From: a virus
Virus record (IMG/VR): IMGVR_UViG_3300008117_000229
Location: 1-29,914 of that record
DNA: 29,914 nt
Strand: one strand, 5' to 3'
Numbering within the stretch: the first letter of the stretch is position 1; each line of letters starts with the position of its first letter. A model generated the notes under the pieces. The model was not told where the DNA came from, made no database searches, and saw only the letters and a list, made by a program, of their open reading frames with translations. The position numbers were made by a program, and so were the translations under genes. Below are positions 9,442-29,912 of this stretch, piece by piece.

Positions 9442-10044
9442 ATGAAAACCTTTCGCCAATATTTAGTAGAAAGTGTGCGCACATATCGTTACACACTTAA
9501 GATAGCAGGAGATGTGGACAGTAAGTTTTTAGACTTATTGCGTATGAACCTCAAGAAGTTTGATCCTGTCAAAATTGAGGATCCTAAAACTACTCCAATC
9601 CAAAAAGATCCTTATGGATTTCCGGACATACACAACGAGCCAGTAACTATTATTAAGTGTGAATTTAAGTATCCAGCAACAGAACCTATGATTCAACAAA
9701 TGGTTCAATTAATGGGTAAAAACGTTAATCAAGTTCGTTTAATCACAACAGAATATAATGACAGTATTAACCATGAAATAGATCAGTATGCAAACGAAGC
9801 TAGTCATAGTCCATTACTACTTCATACAGAATTAGAAGATGATGGCAAAGAAGCAAGCAAAGATTATGCAAATCAATACTTAGATAAGGTTGTTCCTAAG
9901 AAACCAACATTTGACTATCAGTACAGTGCAAAAAGAACACCTGATAGTCCTAATAAAACAAAAGAGGGCATTCAAACAAAAAGTCCAATGACAAATGTAA
10001 ATCGCCCTTCTAAACCAGCAACAGGAGCTAGTTTTAACAAATGA
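9442..10044 (+). CDS. Probable internal head protein with capsid-targeting-like N-terminus
   Basis: A 200-residue protein of unknown family. The first ten residues, MKTFRQYLVE followed by S, follow the pattern of the T4 internal protein capsid-targeting sequence (MKTYQEFIAE then A). They end in L-x-E at the same position, and (L/I)xE is the recognition motif of the T4 prohead protease gp21. The middle (about 20-125) looks like a mixed alpha/beta domain (YRYTLKIAG, VTIIKCEFKY, QVRLITTEY). The C-terminal 60 residues are Pro/Ser/Lys-rich and disordered. It lies between the small terminase and a membrane/coiled-coil gene, and its stop overlaps the next start (ATGA). Packaging inside the head is inference; the peptide match is directly visible. 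Confidence 0.7.
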   Translation: MKTFRQYLVESVRTYRYTLKIAGDVDSKFLDLLRMNLKKFDPVKIEDPKTTPIQKDPYGFPDIHNEPVTIIKCEFKYPATEPMIQQMVQLMGKNVNQVRLITTEYNDSINHEIDQYANEASHSPLLLHTELEDDGKEASKDYANQYLDKVVPKKPTFDYQYSAKRTPDSPNKTKEGIQTKSPMTNVNRPSKPATGASFNK

Positions 10045-10256
10045 TAGATTTTACGACAAGTCAATTGACATGGATAGTTGTAGGCGCCTGCAGTTTAGGT
10101 GGCGGTGGCTATTTAACAATGACTTCGACAGTTGGTGATTTAGATAAAAAAATTGAAGTATCTAATGCCAAAGCAGAAGCTATGAATGAAAAACTGAGGT
10201 CATTAAAAACACAGTTAGATAGAATAGAAAATAAGATTGATTCGGGCAGAAAATGA
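10041..10256 (+). CDS. Small membrane-anchored coiled-coil protein
   Basis: A 71-residue protein with one hydrophobic segment at about residues 8-27 (QLTWIVVGACSLGGGGYL) and a charged heptad-like coiled coil from about 32 to 66. This bitopic layout is seen in spanin/holin-accessory and in small virion proteins, and the sequence alone does not decide. It overlaps both neighbours by 4 bases (ATGA), linking it in translation to the MKTF protein upstream and the 1405-residue virion protein downstream. A role with those proteins in the virion or during ejection is as likely as lysis. Confidence 0.65.
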   Translation: MIDFTTSQLTWIVVGACSLGGGGYLTMTSTVGDLDKKIEVSNAKAEAMNEKLRSLKTQLDRIENKIDSGRK

Positions 10257-13200
10257 AATCTAAAGATATTATAAAAGAAGCCAGTGTGATGGATGAACCA
10301 GGTGAGAAAAAAATACATAGAAATCCACTGGACCAACCACTATTTCCACCCCCAAAACAAAGACCTCCTACAGAAGGAGATAAATTCTTGGCAAGTATGT
10401 TACCTGGCGTAGGCACAGCAATGGATGTTAAAGACATTGCGGGCGGTGATTATTCTGCTATACCATATATGGCTTTGGGACTATTGCCAGGCGGTGGCTT
10501 ATTGAAAAAGGGTGCTAAAACCCTTGGAAAGAAACTTTTTGGTAAAGCTGATGATGTTGCTGCTATTACTAAACGTGATGCACCTGAACTAACTACACCG
10601 CAAAGAAGTTATAAAGAACTTGATCGTCCTGCAGTTCAAAGAAAAGCAGATGCAGACGCAGCAGCGGCTAAGGCAGCAAAAGATGCAGAAAAAGCAGCAA
10701 AAGATGCAGAAAAAGTTGGTCCTGAAAAAACAAGATTAAAGACTGATGATGACTTACCAATAGTAGGTAAAACACCAACAGCTCCTAGACAGTTAACTCC
10801 GCAAGAAAAAGCACAAGAACTATTAAAAGGTAGGGGTTTTAAACAAGAGCCTGGAAGCGTAAGTGGTTTTAGACCTAAAAGTAAAAGCACTAAAACAGAG
10901 CAACCGCCAAAATCAGATTTACCTCCAACAACAAGTGGCCCTAAATTTGATCCAAACAAAGAATATTCTACAGGTTTAACAGTTCAAAAACCTTTCTCAG
11001 GTCAACCTAGTAAAACAAGTCCTGCTCCTAAAGCACCTGATAAAGCTCCAATTGCGAATGATCCATATGCTCAAAGAAAAGTTGTTGCTGCAGACTTAGC
11101 TGGTCACGCTGCACTAATATATTATTTGATGAATATGAAAAATAAACGGGCAGAAGATGGTGCAGTTGGTACTAATGACGGTGCAGTTCAGGTTTCCTTA
11201 GATCCCTCAGTTGGTACAGGAGAAAAATCAGGTAGTGATTCTAGTGCAGCAAAAGGTGAAAAAACTAAAGATGAAAAATCTGCAGACAATCAGAGTCCAA
11301 ATGTTATAACTACACCGAAACCAGGTGAGACACCAACTGGTAATGAAAAAAATTCAAACAATCAACAAAATGTTAAACCATCTAGTGGAGAGCCGGAAGG
11401 AAAAAGTGATGGCAACGTTAGTAATGACGGAAAAAACAAAGGTAAAGAAACTGGACAAAATGACAAGAGTGAAAAGGGTACATCAGATTCAAGTTCATCC
11501 ATAAAAGGTGATGTACCGACTACAGGTGGAGATGGTGGCACATCAGATACACCTAGTAAAGATAAGAAAACAACCACCTCAGAACCACCTAAGCCTCCTA
11601 TTCAAAAAGATACAGGTAGTAGAGAAAAGGATAATGTTGATTTTCAAAATGATAAAAAGATGCAAAAACGTGAAAGACCTGATACAAATGAATCAGTCTT
11701 AAATAGATTAGTAAGTCTTTCTAATATAGGTACAGAAAAAATAACGGAGTCAAATACTATGAGTTTAGACATGAAATCAATGCTTCAATTACTAGATGAG
11801 GCATCAAAAATGGCCGATATAAAAGGCAAAAAGCATACTGGTAAGTATGGCAAAGAATACGATACTGATGAAGAAGGCGATGAAAAGTCTAAAAAGACTG
11901 AACCTGCTGAAAAGAAAGGACGCGGTCGTCCTAAGAAAGACTCTAATGTAGAAGCTGGTAAATATAAAGGTGCAGACGATGCAGCTAAACATATCATTGG
12001 TGGTAAAGCACCTAAGGGCAAATCAAATCTTCCAAGTAAAAAGCACACACTTAAAGATTGGTTTGAATCTAGTGAAGAAATGATCGCAGAAAGAGCAAAA
12101 AACAAATATGCTATTGGAATGGCTGCTGCTAAAAAGCAAGCAGGCTATGGTTCAAAACCAGCAACTGATCTTCCAAAGAGTGTGATTAAGAAGGGTCATG
12201 AAATTGCTAAGAAGATAAAAGAAGGGGGAACACAAATACCTAATCCTAATTTACCGCAGAAAAGTAAACTACCAGAGCCACCAGGCAATGTGGCGCCTCC
12301 TAGTTCAACAACTCAACGAAAGGCAGACCCAAATATGGCACCGGGTAGTAATGTTCAACCAGCCCCACAGCCTAAAAAACAAGATCATTTTGATCGTAGT
12401 AGCGATGAAGTGACAGAAACACTAAAAGGTGGTCAAAAGAATTTAGATAAGAATCATAACGGTAAGTTAGATTCACAGGACTTTAAAATGTTAAGATCAG
12501 GTAAAAAGAAAGTCAAAGAAGGTGTTAATTTCGCAGAAATGATGCGTGAAACACAAATGACTATTGAAGAAATGTTAGAAGGACTACAGCAAGAAATTGC
12601 TGAGTTTAAAGCTACAGGCAGTATGGGAGAGAAGTTACGTGATGCATTGGATATACATCGTCATAGTAACAAAGACAAATTAATGGGTGAAATGTCTATG
12701 ATGAGTCAGCCTGTTGTAGAACAACCAGTTGAAGAAAGCCCGTTTACTTATGCAGCTAAACAAGCTAAAGCATCAGGACAAGATAGCTTTAAATTAGGTG
12801 GAGAAACCTTCCCAGTTAAAGAATCTGAAGAAGTAGAAGAAAGTTTTCCTGCGTATGCCAAAGGAAATCAAAAATTTGGTAAAGATGGTATGGCCAAATT
12901 AAGAAACGCAGCACAGGACGGTGCCAGTGAAAGAAAAATGGATCAGATCAGAGACAAGCATAACAAATATAAAATGAAGGAAGATGGTCCTGGCTCAGCA
13001 CAACTATACGGTGACAGTGATAGGGACTTTAATCCAGTTAGATCACTTAAACAATTTGCAAACAAAGGCATTGATGCATGGAATGATTATGAGCAAGGGA
13101 AGAAAGAACGCTGGGATGCTGCTCTTGGTGGAAATGCCGGTTATATTCCAGGAACACTACCTAGATTTGATGTAGATAAAGATAAACCTGAAGGGGCGAA

Positions 13201-14470
13201 AGGCAAAATTCAAGAATTGCCTAAAACAGATTTTAAGATGAAGCCTGAACCTTTACCTGACATTACTGATCGTGAAAAGCCATACAGGGATGAAAGAACA
13301 GGTAAAATGGTTTATCCACCAAAAGGATTGAGTATTAGTGAACCATATGGAAAAGAAGCTATGAAAAAGAAACCCGTAAAAGAAAGTTTAGAATTTAATC
13401 TTTGGGACAGTCAACTTGAGAAAATGTTAAATGAAAGTCTAACTGTAACAACAACAAAAGGTGACCATGGTCAAGATGATAGCGTTAGTATCACTGCTAG
13501 TGGCGCGGACGCAGCAGACATAATGGCATTGGTACGCAATGCAGGGTTAGGTGGAATGGGAGGTGCTGAGGTTGCGCATGAACCTGAAGCTGAACCAGAT
13601 CAACAGCTTTCAGCATATGGCGCACCTATTTCAGTTGATGTGGTGTCAAAAGATGATATGAGTTCAGGTGACGACATGTTATCACTTATTCAAAAACTAA
13701 CAGGTTTAGAAACTGACATGTCACCAGAGGACAATGAAGAGGTATACACAGTTGATTCAGGTGAAGAAGATTCACACGATTATGAAAATGAAGAAGGTGA
13801 AGAAGATGAAAGCGAGAAGGAAGAGCAGGGAGAAGAAGGCTCTGATGAAGAAGATAGTGAAGATGAGGAAGAAAAAGTAGATGAAGCATATGGCCAAGCA
13901 GACGAAGGCAATGCATTTACCGGTAAATTAGCTCAAACACAACAAGGTGGTGAATTTGAGCTTGACGGTAAAAAGTATAAAGACACAAGTAGTTTAGAAG
14001 AAGGTGAAGGTATGTGTCAAGAATGTGGTATGTACGAAGGTGAATGCGGGCATGTGCGTGAAGGCGTTGTTCACACAGGCACAATTAAACCCACAGGTGA
14101 TGGTGGTGAAGAATATGTACCAGAACCAGGATATCGTGTAAGAGCAACTTATGATCAAGGATCTACTGAAAAGCCAAAAATGGGTTTTGTAAAATCAGAG
14201 CCTGAAATGAAGATACCTCAAGCAACTTCTCCACAGAAGCCACAGGATAATACAAATGAAAACTTAGAAAGTGCCCGCCCAATAGAAGAAGAACTAGCTA
14301 ACAGTGCTGATGACACTACAATGCAGGATATAAAGTACTTGATTAAGACACTTGCTGGTGGATTAAATGGAGAAAAGCGTGATCAAACAACCTTACCTTA
14401 TACTGCAGTAAAAGTCACTGAGAGTAAACAAATGATTAATGAATGGAAGAAATTAAGTGGTATAAAATAA
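10253..14470 (+). CDS. Giant low-complexity virion protein with multiple prohead-protease-like sites
   Basis: A 1405-residue, Lys/Glu/Ser/Pro-rich, largely disordered protein. Visible parts in order: an N-terminus MKSKDIIKE|A that fits the gp21 (I/L)xE cleavage rule; a Gly-rich hydrophobic stretch (43-98) and a second hydrophobic helix (277-293); a second MKSMLQLLDE|A peptide (507-516) at the start of a basic segment with an AT-hook, GRGRPKK (556-562); an EF-hand/dockerin-like loop D732-x-N-x-N-G...D740...D743; LNE|S (1059-1061); a strongly acidic tract (about 1155-1220); LEE|G (1248-1250); and a Cys/His cluster C1255-x2-C1258-x6-C1265-x-H1267. The start overlaps the upstream stop and a strong terminator follows. 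I infer a head-internal or ejected protein that is proteolytically processed. No enzyme domain was recognised. Confidence 0.75.
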   Translation: MKSKDIIKEASVMDEPGEKKIHRNPLDQPLFPPPKQRPPTEGDKFLASMLPGVGTAMDVKDIAGGDYSAIPYMALGLLPGGGLLKKGAKTLGKKLFGKADDVAAITKRDAPELTTPQRSYKELDRPAVQRKADADAAAAKAAKDAEKAAKDAEKVGPEKTRLKTDDDLPIVGKTPTAPRQLTPQEKAQELLKGRGFKQEPGSVSGFRPKSKSTKTEQPPKSDLPPTTSGPKFDPNKEYSTGLTVQKPFSGQPSKTSPAPKAPDKAPIANDPYAQRKVVAADLAGHAALIYYLMNMKNKRAEDGAVGTNDGAVQVSLDPSVGTGEKSGSDSSAAKGEKTKDEKSADNQSPNVITTPKPGETPTGNEKNSNNQQNVKPSSGEPEGKSDGNVSNDGKNKGKETGQNDKSEKGTSDSSSSIKGDVPTTGGDGGTSDTPSKDKKTTTSEPPKPPIQKDTGSREKDNVDFQNDKKMQKRERPDTNESVLNRLVSLSNIGTEKITESNTMSLDMKSMLQLLDEASKMADIKGKKHTGKYGKEYDTDEEGDEKSKKTEPAEKKGRGRPKKDSNVEAGKYKGADDAAKHIIGGKAPKGKSNLPSKKHTLKDWFESSEEMIAERAKNKYAIGMAAAKKQAGYGSKPATDLPKSVIKKGHEIAKKIKEGGTQIPNPNLPQKSKLPEPPGNVAPPSSTTQRKADPNMAPGSNVQPAPQPKKQDHFDRSSDEVTETLKGGQKNLDKNHNGKLDSQDFKMLRSGKKKVKEGVNFAEMMRETQMTIEEMLEGLQQEIAEFKATGSMGEKLRDALDIHRHSNKDKLMGEMSMMSQPVVEQPVEESPFTYAAKQAKASGQDSFKLGGETFPVKESEEVEESFPAYAKGNQKFGKDGMAKLRNAAQDGASERKMDQIRDKHNKYKMKEDGPGSAQLYGDSDRDFNPVRSLKQFANKGIDAWNDYEQGKKERWDAALGGNAGYIPGTLPRFDVDKDKPEGAKGKIQELPKTDFKMKPEPLPDITDREKPYRDERTGKMVYPPKGLSISEPYGKEAMKKKPVKESLEFNLWDSQLEKMLNESLTVTTTKGDHGQDDSVSITASGADAADIMALVRNAGLGGMGGAEVAHEPEAEPDQQLSAYGAPISVDVVSKDDMSSGDDMLSLIQKLTGLETDMSPEDNEEVYTVDSGEEDSHDYENEEGEEDESEKEEQGEEGSDEEDSEDEEEKVDEAYGQADEGNAFTGKLAQTQQGGEFELDGKKYKDTSSLEEGEGMCQECGMYEGECGHVREGVVHTGTIKPTGDGGEEYVPEPGYRVRATYDQGSTEKPKMGFVKSEPEMKIPQATSPQKPQDNTNENLESARPIEEELANSADDTTMQDIKYLIKTLAGGLNGEKRDQTTLPYTAVKVTESKQMINEWKKLSGIK

Positions 14471-22285: not shown

Positions 22286-22645
22286 ATGAAATTTCAGTAC
22301 GAAGCTACAAAGGTTTCGGGGCTAAGAGCCTTAGGAGATAATATCATTGTTTGTGATATGTCTTTTGATATGAGGATTACCCAAAGTGGACTCATACTAC
22401 CCAGTGACGATATGAAAAACTCTGGTATACGCCCAAGATGGGCAAAAGTCTATGCACTAGGCCCTGAACAAGATTCAGTTAAAGTTGGGCAATATGTCCT
22501 AATTGCTCACGGTCGTTGGACTCGCGGTATTAAAATTGAAGATAGTGAAGGAGTAAAAACTATTCGTAGAGTTGATCCTAATGATATACTTTTAATTAGT
22601 GATGAACCTGTTCAAGACGATACTATGGGAGAAAAGGTAATTTAA
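22286..22645 (+). CDS. GroES-like co-chaperonin (gp31 analogue)
   Basis: A 119-residue Cpn10-fold protein. It has the opening strand LRALGDNIIVCD, a mobile-loop region (about 26-48, MRITQSGLILPSDD) with a hydrophobic ILP-like triplet at 37-39 for GroEL docking, and VYALGP, VKVGQYVLIAHG and the closing VDPNDILLIS strand. T4 uses gp31 to replace host GroES so that GroEL can fold the large capsid protein. This gene is likely to do the same. Its TAA overlaps the ATG of the next gene (TAATG). The RBS is weak (GAGGAG about 20 nt upstream). Confidence 0.88.
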   Translation: MKFQYEATKVSGLRALGDNIIVCDMSFDMRITQSGLILPSDDMKNSGIRPRWAKVYALGPEQDSVKVGQYVLIAHGRWTRGIKIEDSEGVKTIRRVDPNDILLISDEPVQDDTMGEKVI

Positions 22646-26833: not shown

Positions 26834-27637
26834 ATGGACCATTACAATACATTAGGCGTTGATAGAAACGCCTCACAAGAAGAAATAAAACAAGCCTATA
26901 GGAGATTAGCAAATATTCATCACCCCGATAGGGGTGGTGATACAGCTAAGTTTCAAGAGATTCAATCGGCTTACGACACGCTATCTAATCCCCAAAAAAA
27001 AGCAGAATACGATATGCCTTCTCATGGTTTTCCAAATCAAGGAGGTTTTGGATTCACAGGATTTCCTGGGGGATTTAGTTTTCACACAGGTGGTATAAAC
27101 ATTGATGATATTTTTGGCCAGATGTTCGGACATCAACGTCATCATATGCCAACATACAAAACTATAGTTACATTAACATTGGAACAAGTTTACAGTGGTG
27201 GAGATCAAGTATTAAGTTTTGTTACAAATAATGGACCTCAAACTGTTAGGATTGATATTCCTAAAGGAGTTGAAAATGGTCATCAAATAAGATATGATAA
27301 TTTAATTCCCAATGCACATTTAATCGTTGAATTTCGTGTACATGATCATCAGAAATTTCAAAGAACTGGATTAACACTTATAAGTGAAATAGATGTAAGT
27401 GTTCTTGATTTAATTGTTGGTACAACGATAGATTTTGTGACAATATCAGGGAAAACATTTAATGTTTTAATAAAACCAAAAACACAACCTGGAACTACCC
27501 TGCGTGTAAATGGACAAGGATTGACAAATGGACATAGTACAGGAGACCAATTATTGTTGATTAAACCATTCGTACCTGATAAAATTGACAATGATATACT
27601 AATGAGTATTTTGCACTCTAAAAATAAAGGAAATTAA
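26834..27637 (+). CDS. DnaJ-like co-chaperone (zinc-finger-less, CbpA type)
   Basis: A 267-residue protein with a complete J domain (1-62) that includes the HPD motif (H30-P31-D32) needed to stimulate Hsp70 ATPase. It also has a Gly/Phe-rich linker (about 65-100) and a C-terminal substrate-binding region (about 105-260, with [27 protein letters not shown] and [10 protein letters not shown]). There is no CxxCxGxG zinc-finger module, so it is a type II J-protein. No Hsp70 gene is in the window, so it probably acts on the host DnaK. It lies directly upstream of a ClpA-like gene (1-nt gap), suggesting that substrates are handed from DnaJ/DnaK to the unfoldase. Confidence 0.92.
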
Positions 27638-27638
27638 A

Positions 27639-29912
27639 TTGAATAATTCTGTTGAAATTGAATCAATTATTGAACAATCTATTGTTTTGGCTAAAGAAAG
27701 AAACCACGAATATTGCACAGTGGAACATTTACTTTTAGCTTTAGTTAAACATGTACCCTTCAAAAAATGCTTAGAGCAGTTTGGGGCTGATGTAGAAAAT
27801 TTATCAAAAGAATTGTCTAACTATTTGGATAGTTTAAAATCTATTGAAGTTATAGTTGATCAGGGACAAGAAATACAACCTAAAAAAACAAATAGTTTAG
27901 AAAGAGTTATTAATCGTAGCGTGACACAGGTACTGTTCACTGGTAGAAAAAATGTGACTACAGTTGATCTTTATCTCAGTATTATGAATGAAAATAATAG
28001 TCATGCAAATTATTTCCTTTTAAAATATGGAATACTCAAAAACGAATTTCTTCCTCATTGGCAGAAAACTTACAAGGGTGCAGAATATTCTGGGAATCTC
28101 ACTGATAGCCAAGCAAACGAAATTCTTGATGAATATACGATAAATCTAACAAAGATGGCACAAGAGGGAAAACTTGAGCCACTAATTGGTCGCAGTACTG
28201 AACTTAATGATATCATTAATGTTCTTGCTAAACGCTTTAAATCTAATGTATTGATGGTAGGTGATCCGGGTGTTGGTAAGACAGCTATTGCAGAAGGTCT
28301 TGCTACTATGATTGTTGAGGATAATGTTCCTGAATTCTTAAAGAACCATGAACTATACAGTTTAGAAGTCGGTATGCTACTTGCGGGCAGTAAGTATCGT
28401 GGTGATTTTGAAGAAAAAATTAAAAACATTATTGATGCATTGAATACGAAAAAGAAAGCTATCCTTTTTATTGATGAAGCACATACAATGAAAGGCAGTG
28501 GTAACACCAATAATGGTAGTATTGATTTTGCAAGCATGATTAAGCCTGCAATTACTAAGGGCACATTAAAGATTATTGCAAGCACTACTTGGGAAGAGTA
28601 CTACGAAAGCTTTGAGAAGGATCGTGCATTGATGCGTAGATTCTATCGTGTTGGTATTGATGAGCCAAGTCACGATAGCACTATTCGTATCTTACGTGGA
28701 TTAAGTCAAAGACTAAATGATTTTCATAATGTAAAAATCTCAGAGGAAGCAATTGAGGCAAGTGTTGATTGTTCTTCACGTTACATCCATGATCGTAAGA
28801 ATCCAGATAAAAGTATTGACTTACTTGATGCAGCCTGCGCTAAGCAACGTGTATTAGAAAATAAGGAAGCAGAAATTACTAAAGAGCTTATCTACGAACA
28901 AGTTGAACGATTTACGGGTGTTCCTGCAGATAAACTTAGTAACGATTACAGTGATAGAATTAAAACTCTTGAGCAAAATGTAAAGGATAAACTTTATGGT
29001 CAAGATGATGCTGTAAACAAGGTTCTTGAAAGAATCTATGTTAGCTTTGCTGGTATTAATAACGAAACGAAACCAGTTGGTAGTTTCTTGTTCTTAGGTC
29101 CTACTGGTACTGGGAAAACTGAACTTGCTAAACTACTCAGCAAGAACCTTGACATGCCATTGCTCAAGTACGATATGAGTGAATATGGTGAGAAACATAG
29201 TGTCGCTAAACTAATTGGTGCACCTCCTGGCTATGTAGGATACGGTGAAGGTAATCTAGGTGGTGGTAAACTAATAAATGACTTAAGCAAGAACCCATAC
29301 TCTATTATGTTGTTTGATGAAGTCGAAAAAGCACACCATGAAGTTTTTGACATTTTCTTACAATTACTTGACGAAGGACGTGTTACGGGAAGTAACGGCA
29401 AAGAAGTAAATGCTAAAAATTGTATCATCATCATGACAAGTAATTTGGGTGCAAGTGATAGCGAACGTAATGCGATTGGCTTCGGAGCCCAAGAAAAAAC
29501 AGGCGAAGATGACAAAGCTATGAAAGAGTTTTTTAAACCTGAGTTTAGAAATCGACTTGATTTAGTATGCAAGTTTAACAAATTAGATTCACTTGCAATT
29601 AAGAAAATTGTTGTTAAATTTACGGAAGATTTAAAAAAGGCTTTGAAAAACACACACGATATTAATTTAAATTTAAGTGAACCTGTGGTTGATTACATTG
29701 CCGAAAAGGGGTACGATAGCAAAATGGGTGCTAGACCATTAGCACGTAAAATTGACGAGTGGATTAGAGTTCCATTATCTAAAAAAATTGTTTTTGAAAA
29801 TGTTAAAAATGCTAACGTATTTGCAATACTAAAAGGTGATGAAATTGAATTTACAGTAACGCCAAAAGTTACTGCATTTGTTGGATATGATGGAGTAATT
29901 ACAGTTGAATAA
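27639..29912 (+). CDS. ClpA-like AAA+ unfoldase with ClpP-docking IGF motif
   Basis: A complete 757-residue two-ring Clp ATPase (E. coli ClpA is 758). It has an N-domain (1 to about 145), D1 with Walker A GDPGVGKT (208-215), pore loop YRG (253-255) and Walker B ILFIDEAH (275-282), then D2 with Walker A GPTGTGKT (487-494), pore loop GYVG (531-534), Walker B IMLFDEVEK (556-564) and sensor-2 GAR (697-699). No long coiled-coil middle domain separates D1 from D2, so it is ClpA-like rather than ClpB. I613-G614-F615 sits in the ClpP-binding loop position (IGL in ClpA, IGF in ClpX). The start is TTG with AAAGGAAA upstream. No clpP is seen, so host ClpP would be the partner. Confidence 0.93.
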   Translation: MNNSVEIESIIEQSIVLAKERNHEYCTVEHLLLALVKHVPFKKCLEQFGADVENLSKELSNYLDSLKSIEVIVDQGQEIQPKKTNSLERVINRSVTQVLFTGRKNVTTVDLYLSIMNENNSHANYFLLKYGILKNEFLPHWQKTYKGAEYSGNLTDSQANEILDEYTINLTKMAQEGKLEPLIGRSTELNDIINVLAKRFKSNVLMVGDPGVGKTAIAEGLATMIVEDNVPEFLKNHELYSLEVGMLLAGSKYRGDFEEKIKNIIDALNTKKKAILFIDEAHTMKGSGNTNNGSIDFASMIKPAITKGTLKIIASTTWEEYYESFEKDRALMRRFYRVGIDEPSHDSTIRILRGLSQRLNDFHNVKISEEAIEASVDCSSRYIHDRKNPDKSIDLLDAACAKQRVLENKEAEITKELIYEQVERFTGVPADKLSNDYSDRIKTLEQNVKDKLYGQDDAVNKVLERIYVSFAGINNETKPVGSFLFLGPTGTGKTELAKLLSKNLDMPLLKYDMSEYGEKHSVAKLIGAPPGYVGYGEGNLGGGKLINDLSKNPYSIMLFDEVEKAHHEVFDIFLQLLDEGRVTGSNGKEVNAKNCIIIMTSNLGASDSERNAIGFGAQEKTGEDDKAMKEFFKPEFRNRLDLVCKFNKLDSLAIKKIVVKFTEDLKKALKNTHDINLNLSEPVVDYIAEKGYDSKMGARPLARKIDEWIRVPLSKKIVFENVKNANVFAILKGDEIEFTVTPKVTAFVGYDGVITVE

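Follow-up and report, generated by a model that had tools for sequence, protein, structure and literature searches.

In bacteriophage T4 the gp21 protease cleaves after L/I-X-E; gp22 and gp67 each end up as several fragments, Alt loses residues from both ends, and gene 21 itself contains a second start (PMC9026906). For phage SPN3US the C-terminal propeptide of the protease has been proposed as a prohead-targeting signal (PMC7411985). A gene that invites comparison with these systems was analysed at positions 10253-14470 of a viral DNA stretch of 29,914 nucleotides (IMG/VR record IMGVR_UViG_3300008117_000229, positions 1 to 29,914), hereafter the window. Judged from its sequence, the product of 1405 residues is probably a prohead-core protein that would act in the manner of the T4 core proteins that gp21 cleaves, entering the prohead and being cleaved there. 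Like T4 gp22, gp67 and gp68, it carries dense PHIxE|[AS] sites (PHI is [ILMVF] and the bar marks the cut), relatives of the gene occur with an S77 gp21-type protease, and the protein ends as the scaffold of its own lineage does. Unlike them, it is much longer, is encoded outside the cluster of portal, protease, scaffold and major capsid protein (MCP) genes, and is not homologous to the scaffold over its length; T4 gp22, for its part, has no LAG[IL] tail. An initial annotation had proposed a long head precursor cut into several pieces. Its central idea was supported by the many gp21-type sites, their family-wide enrichment and a rank beside scaffold and protease, while only part of its sites and modules held.

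The reading frame was checked and, as first described, is open throughout from its ATG; the start overlaps the stop of a 71-aa open reading frame (ORF; 10041-10256). It was taken as a genuine gene because relatives keep both the gene order and a conserved protein sequence. Searching with the window protein turned up 14 contigs, and searching with a short-form relative 78. The family comprises 73 distinct sequences of >600 aa in uncultivated virus contigs, and its members read from start to stop are 705-1676 aa long. It was previously unannotated and occupies the same locus in uncultivated relatives of the jumbo phages RaK2 and PA5oct. The 1405-aa protein had no match in protein and DNA searches of annotated phages or in the prokaryote genomes searched; it contains no PHROG, Pfam or NCBIfam domain above cut-off, and no PDB family fits it. 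Disorder-promoting residues (K, R, E, D, S, T, P, G, N, Q) make up 71% of the chain. The AlphaFold2 model of residues 503-1405 had a mean predicted local distance difference test score (pLDDT) of 48.9, with 544 of 903 residues below 50, and values above 70 were confined to short helices and small beta elements; most of the 1405-aa protein is accordingly predicted to be disordered. Two alignments were used, A1 with the window and L001-L014, and A2 with a wider set of 20 members. Modules appear to be gained and lost within the protein, since the near-identical L011 and L014 lack a module inserted in L012. This extra module (A1 columns ~1190-1340) holds a hydrophobic, membrane-like stretch.

Cleavage motifs were counted against shuffles of each sequence, using a wide motif ([ILMVF]xE|[ASG]) and a strict one ([IL]xE[ASG]). 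The four tetrapeptides from which cleavage was originally argued (IKE|A at residue 9, LDE|A at 516, LNE|S at 1061 and LEE|G at 1250) had been placed correctly, but the strict motif occurs six times in the window protein, the additional copies being ITE|S at 499 and IKE|G at 657. Six occurrences against 2.8 +/- 1.6 in shuffles is barely above chance (P ~0.05), so the four sites were by themselves an insufficient argument. With the wide motif 16 occurrences were found where about 5.5-5.6 were expected (P <0.0005, 2000 shuffles), and enrichment was present in 14/14 members tested, distant clades included (z 2.9-6.5). None of six controls (mirror, E-to-D, spacing -1, spacing +1, polar P3 and non-small P1') was enriched. 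Around all family glutamates, marked hydrophobic enrichment was confined to P3 (1.47-fold), and in scaffolds it was likewise seen at P3 alone. A hydrophobic P3 together with a small P1' was counted 574 times in the family (330 expected), 188 times in scaffolds (115 expected) and 903 times in other ORFs (792 expected). Glutamates at sites were conserved in 73% of A1 comparisons versus 46% for other glutamates (P = 0.001), and the excess persisted after flank identity had been subtracted (P = 0.006).

Three large relatives carry both the family gene and a scaffold gene, namely G012 (333 kb), G033 (361 kb) and G013 (250 kb). A gp21-type protease and an MCP were found by family search in G012 and G013, and in G033 the ORF adjacent to the scaffold resembles the G012 protease. 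The S77 protease is present in RaK2, PA5oct and Phosso as well as in G012 and G013, and the MCPs of the lineage hold LLAE|SSAGTTTAG near the N-terminus, which fits the L/I-X-E of gp21. Every ORF of each genome was ranked by its site enrichment over its own shuffles. The scaffold came first in all three genomes; the family gene was 5th of 374 ORFs in G012, 4th of 420 in G033 and 3rd of 243 in G013, and the protease was 3rd in two of the three. Disorder does not explain this ranking, because the family gene was still among the top three when only disorder-rich ORFs of at least 200 aa were considered. In a positive control the same procedure placed T4 gp22 first and gp21 second, with no other input, and put the RaK2 scaffold first; it is applicable to any phage that has a protease of the gp21 type.

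Two further proteins were conspicuous for PHIxE[ASG] sites in the same genomes. A protein of 635-786 aa with no Pfam match, which may be a further substrate of the head protease, ranked second in each (L136:15531-17519 for G012, G033:55664-57571 and G013:153099-155459). The other, a cytidylyltransferase-like protein (PF01467) rich in such sites (L123:10906-12606 for G012, G033:340501-341817 and G013:226031-227155), is possibly an enzyme packaged in the head.

The individual sites are listed in Table 1. Among those proposed originally, the sites at 516 and 1061 are conserved despite a varied P2 and the site at 1250 partly so; the site at residue 9 is not, and it is there, and not at 516 or 1061, that a site is lost while its flanks are kept. 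Six sites that are conserved equally well or better (499, 756, 863, 1211, 1270 and 1390) had been missed. At residue 15 most short forms of the protein carry LSE|A or LNE|A, and long forms do so where their internal start lies. In a short form, the predicted cut at E516 would release an N-terminal peptide of 14-15 aa resembling the capsid-targeting sequence (CTS) of T4. At the other end, the last site lies 11-15 aa from the terminus in 18/20 members of A2.

The tail of the window protein, WKKLSGIK, matches the scaffold C-terminus found in genomes of relatives, and most family members outside a clade with an LDSL ending finish in W(K/A)(K/T)L[AS]GI(K). An L[AS]G[ILVM] ending was found in only two ORFs each of G012 and G013, the scaffold (VIDxKRLAGL) and the family gene; in G033 it was shared by a third, unrelated ORF of 98 aa. 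The scaffold tail is kept in 35/35 distinct scaffolds and in 61/61 of a second, partly overlapping set, with variable residues preceding it, and it is also present in the scaffolds of PA5oct, RaK2, Phosso and Atu_ph07. When full-length profiles were compared with no region preset, just the scaffold and family C-termini were aligned (P 0.0025). The tail pattern of the RaK2-like scaffold family, [PHI]xx[KR][KR]LAG[LI], was recognized in the present family except in the LDSL-ending clade, and copies of the tail motif were also seen in PA5oct gp281 and RaK2 ORF050. The tail would be removable, since a PHIxE site lies 9-19 residues from the end in 20/34 distinct C-termini (4.6 expected). Homology does not place the family gene in the scaffold family: no homology was found over the scaffold length, blastp gave no hit at 1e-4 and the tails alone align. 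Nor does the gene lie between protease and MCP, a place taken by a separate scaffold in G012 and G013. The tail is proposed as a possible C-terminal counterpart of the T4 CTS that is common to the scaffold.

Neither this tail nor an internal start at M503 had been noticed in the initial annotation. The N-terminal extension ahead of M503 is confined to a close clade (the window, L001-L007 and L010), in which it is about 500-720 residues long. Short forms, L009 and L012 among them, begin exactly at window residue 503 and carry their own Shine-Dalgarno sequence there. In 7/7 long forms readable at this point GGAG stands 6-9 nt before the ATG of M503. It requires GAG (15% of Glu codons) after ACG (4% of Thr codons) or GTG (10% of Val codons), and it persists although the preceding amino acid switches between Thr and Val. 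Because M503 keeps its Shine-Dalgarno sequence in all of these forms, two products of 1405 and 903 aa are likely; conservation among related rows suggests that one gene probably yields both. The simplest reading would be that the extension was joined in frame ahead of an older gene whose start still works, comparable to the second start of T4 gene 21 (PMC9026906).

Table 1. Features of the 1405-aa gene and its product, in window coordinates (rows are those of alignments A1 and A2).
Feature	Position	Strand	Basis or conservation
Whole gene, long form, 1405 aa; predicted precursor of the prohead core, rich in sites and largely disordered	10253..14470	+	ORF, 73 members, AlphaFold2
Residues 1-502, lineage-specific N-terminal extension	10253..11758	+	A1: L008, L009 and L011-L014 start at the residue 503 position
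E9, IKE|A	10277..10279	+	IKEA in 3/7 aligned rows; others ITEW, LTEW, VNEW
GGAG (Shine-Dalgarno core)	11746..11749	+	9 nt upstream of internal ATG
E499, ITE|S, predicted site closing the N-terminal extension	11747..11749	+	PHIxE|S in 8/8 long forms
Predicted internal-start product from M503, 903 aa, equal to the short form of relatives	11759..14470	+	Short-form starts, Shine-Dalgarno
E516, LDE|A, predicted site	11798..11800	+	PHIxE|A in 12/12 (A1), 17/20 (A2)
AT-hook-like GRPKK, residues 554-564	11912..11944	+	12.8 bits, below Pfam cut-off 17.4
EF-hand-like loop, residues 730-746	12440..12490	+	12.9 bits, below Pfam cut-off 25.4
E756, VKE|G, predicted site	12518..12520	+	7/8 rows (A1), 6/20 (A2)
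E863, VEE|S, predicted site	12839..12841	+	8/10 rows (A1); poor alignment in A2
E1061, LNE|S, predicted site at helix-to-strand boundary of small domain	13433..13435	+	PHIxE|[SG] in 10/10 (A1), 20/20 (A2)
Internal tail-like copy LIQKLTGL, residues 1146-1153	13688..13711	+	Resembles the tail motif
E1211, VDE|A, predicted site after acidic tract	13883..13885	+	5/6 rows (A1)
E1250, LEE|G, partly conserved	14000..14002	+	5/9 (A1), 7/18 (A2)
Cys/His cluster C1255-x2-C1258-x6-C1265-x-H1267	14015..14053	+	CxxC in 71/73 members; full pattern in 35
E1270, VRE|G, predicted site	14060..14062	+	8/9 rows (A1); 1/10 in A2, poorly aligned there
E1390, VTE|S, predicted to free the C-terminal tail	14420..14422	+	9/9 rows (A1)
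C-terminal tail SKQMINEWKKLSGIK, predicted scaffold-like docking motif	14423..14467	+	C-terminus comparison, profile comparison

As a prohead-core protein, the product would be made during head assembly and would enter the core by short helical tags. The main tag would be the C-terminal [PHI]xxWKKL[AS]GIK, a motif akin to the VIDxKRLAGL that ends the scaffold, with an N-terminal helix in addition. Once the shell was complete, the S77 gp21-type protease would cut after Glu at PHI-x-E|[SAG] between small modules of the disordered chain. The sites with the best support for use are 499, 516 and 1061, the last being the strongest of the predicted cuts between modules, followed by 756, 863, 1211, 1270 and 1390. 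Such cuts would trim the N-terminal peptide (to E516 in the short form) and the tail (after E1390) and would split the chain; most peptides would leave or fill the head, and some modules may remain with the DNA. In the clade of the window a segment of ~500 residues would have been fused in front, the old start at M503 keeping its ribosome-binding site.

More speculatively, and with rather less than even confidence, the gene may encode a fast-evolving, dual-start "string of beads" precursor that uses the scaffold tail as a removable ticket to the prohead and is cut into small DNA- and metal-binding peptides. If so, one gene would load many peptides into a jumbo-phage head, and the tail would be a portable targeting signal mirroring the N-terminal CTS of T4. 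Should the tail suffice for prohead entry, proteins could be packaged into giant capsids by a new route, and those uncharacterised jumbo-phage proteins that reach the head could be predicted in a simple way. The analysis gives a large, unannotated family of RaK2-like jumbo phages a proposed function and a testable mechanism.

Several observations weigh against a cleaved prohead-core protein. In the profile comparison the tail resembles the scaffold only weakly (probability 11.8%), and the tail motif is short and was spotted before being tested. A large related clade (L071 and L076-L104) has no LAGI tail and ends instead in TILNKLDSLK or close variants; its members start with MDFKDILTQLDSLK, so that the same motif stands at both ends, and no scaffold was found on the five contigs of this clade that were read. 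Scaffolds favour [LI]xE[AS] (8-fold), whereas the family favours [VM]xE[ASG] (~4-fold) over [LI]xE[AS] (2.5-fold); because the favoured P3 differs, some V/M sites may stay uncut. The window, a 29.9-kb fragment, contains no protease or MCP gene, and PF07068 and PF03420 were not found in its closest contigs, which are fragments too; protease, MCP and scaffold are known from more distant relatives. Lastly, the 1405-aa gene is surrounded by tail and neck genes, away from protease and MCP.

The many sites, the scaffold-like tail and the disorder would also suit an accessory co-scaffold that is broken down in full, so that the virion retains no working part of it, as they fit the behaviour of T4 gp22, gp67 and gp68 (PMC9026906). 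This explanation was considered rather unlikely, since rapid module gain and loss (705-1676 aa) and conserved small domains, for example after E1061, point to cargo as well, and since gp281, which holds the corresponding position in PA5oct, carries the annotation of a structural protein detected in virions by electrospray ionization tandem mass spectrometry (ESI-MS/MS). Like the family gene in G012, gp281 directly follows a 200-aa neighbour, and it has LAG[IV] (LAGV/LAGI) beside KES/EES. Direct homology to gp281 was not significant (probability 0.5%) and was set aside. At the same locus of RaK2, ORF049-ORF051 are virion structural proteins, and ORF050 holds LSGI.

An ejected cargo polyprotein, the cleavage of which would free DNA- or metal-binding peptides to enter the host with the genome, has precedents in the T4 internal proteins (IPI-III), Alt and the ejection proteins of giant phages (PMC5694885, PMC7411985), and it draws on the motifs described originally, with Cys pairs in 71/73 members and RGRP in 28/73. 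It too must be regarded as doubtful, since no enzymatic or known effector domain was found in the window protein and neither the AT-hook nor the EF-hand is conserved. Both had been put forward as modules of the precursor and were rejected as defining ones: they score below threshold (Table 1) and occur in a minority of the 73 members, the EF-type loop in five, with its ligand positions lost even in the close relatives L003 and L004. The Cys/His cluster fared better and is possibly a metal site; its CxxC is nearly universal, while the CxxC...CxC/H form is restricted to 35/73 members. The acidic tract noted with it is present in the window protein but is not universal in the family.

A short N-terminal helix that finishes in PHIxE|A and would be cut off is a possible point in common with IPI-III and Alt, and trimming at both ends is known for Alt (PMC9026906). 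Unlike those proteins, the family has a scaffold-like C-terminal tail that is predicted to be cleavable, many internal sites, no enzyme domain and an N-terminal peptide of 14-31 aa. As a genome-wide mark of head proteins an N-terminal CTS-like pattern was weak (26 versus 15.7 expected in G012; 10 versus 13.5 in PA5oct). The head propeptides and ejection proteins of SPN3US and phiKZ are similar in having long multi-site propeptides, processing after Glu and, for the protease, a proposed C-terminal packaging signal; they differ in their motif, S/A/G-x-E. In the family, [STNQ]xE[ASG] is not enriched and A, S or G stands at P3 of glutamates at 0.89-fold. Polyvalent proteins (PMC5512222) are likewise long phage proteins of several parts, for which packaging and processing have been suggested, but have several recognisable enzymatic domains, often a metallopeptidase; the window protein has none.

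That the PHIxE[SAG] repeats are structural linkers of a disordered protein that stays uncleaved in the virion was judged improbable. V/M-x-E-G, enriched ~4-fold in the family, is rare in scaffolds, and the repeated VKES and VKEG could be a linker habit. On the other side, it is this motif that stands out most in scaffold and protease, both in genomes carrying the family gene and in T4, its preferences at P3 and P1' are position-specific, and the sites at 1061 and 516 are kept while P2 varies.

A tail or neck component such as a tape measure, as the gene order beside sheath, tube and gp4-like genes might suggest, is very unlikely for a protein that is predicted to be disordered and carries a scaffold tail; the tape-measure identity was set aside, the tape-measure-like protein of RaK2 being a different gene that adjoins the portal.

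The window is a piece of a T4-like jumbo myovirus genome. Upstream of the 1405-aa gene lie genes for a fused head-tail adaptor/deoxynucleoside monophosphate (dNMP) kinase, the tail sheath, two tail tubes and a gp4-like head-closure protein, together with two conserved proteins of 165 and 200 aa, in the same order as in Pseudomonas phage PA5oct and Klebsiella phage RaK2. Downstream there is an ORF of 713 aa with no assigned function, followed by an endolysin gene. The Ad2 head-tail adaptor and the kinase share a single ORF (867-2204), whereas they are separate genes in RaK2 and PA5oct. The 200-aa upstream protein (9442-10044) starts MKTFRQYLVE|S, with MRSLKKYIME|S or MKNLRHYISE|S in relatives; this N-terminus resembles the T4 capsid-targeting pattern, and the PA5oct counterpart, gp282, is annotated as detected by mass spectrometry. 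The small ORF at 10041-10256, within the run of head and tail genes, matches weakly to an Rz-like spanin family (PHROG 739, E 6e-5). Toward the end of the window, genes for a co-chaperonin-like protein (22286-22645), a DnaJ-like protein (26834-27637) and a Clp-type ATPase (27639-29912) are located close to one another.

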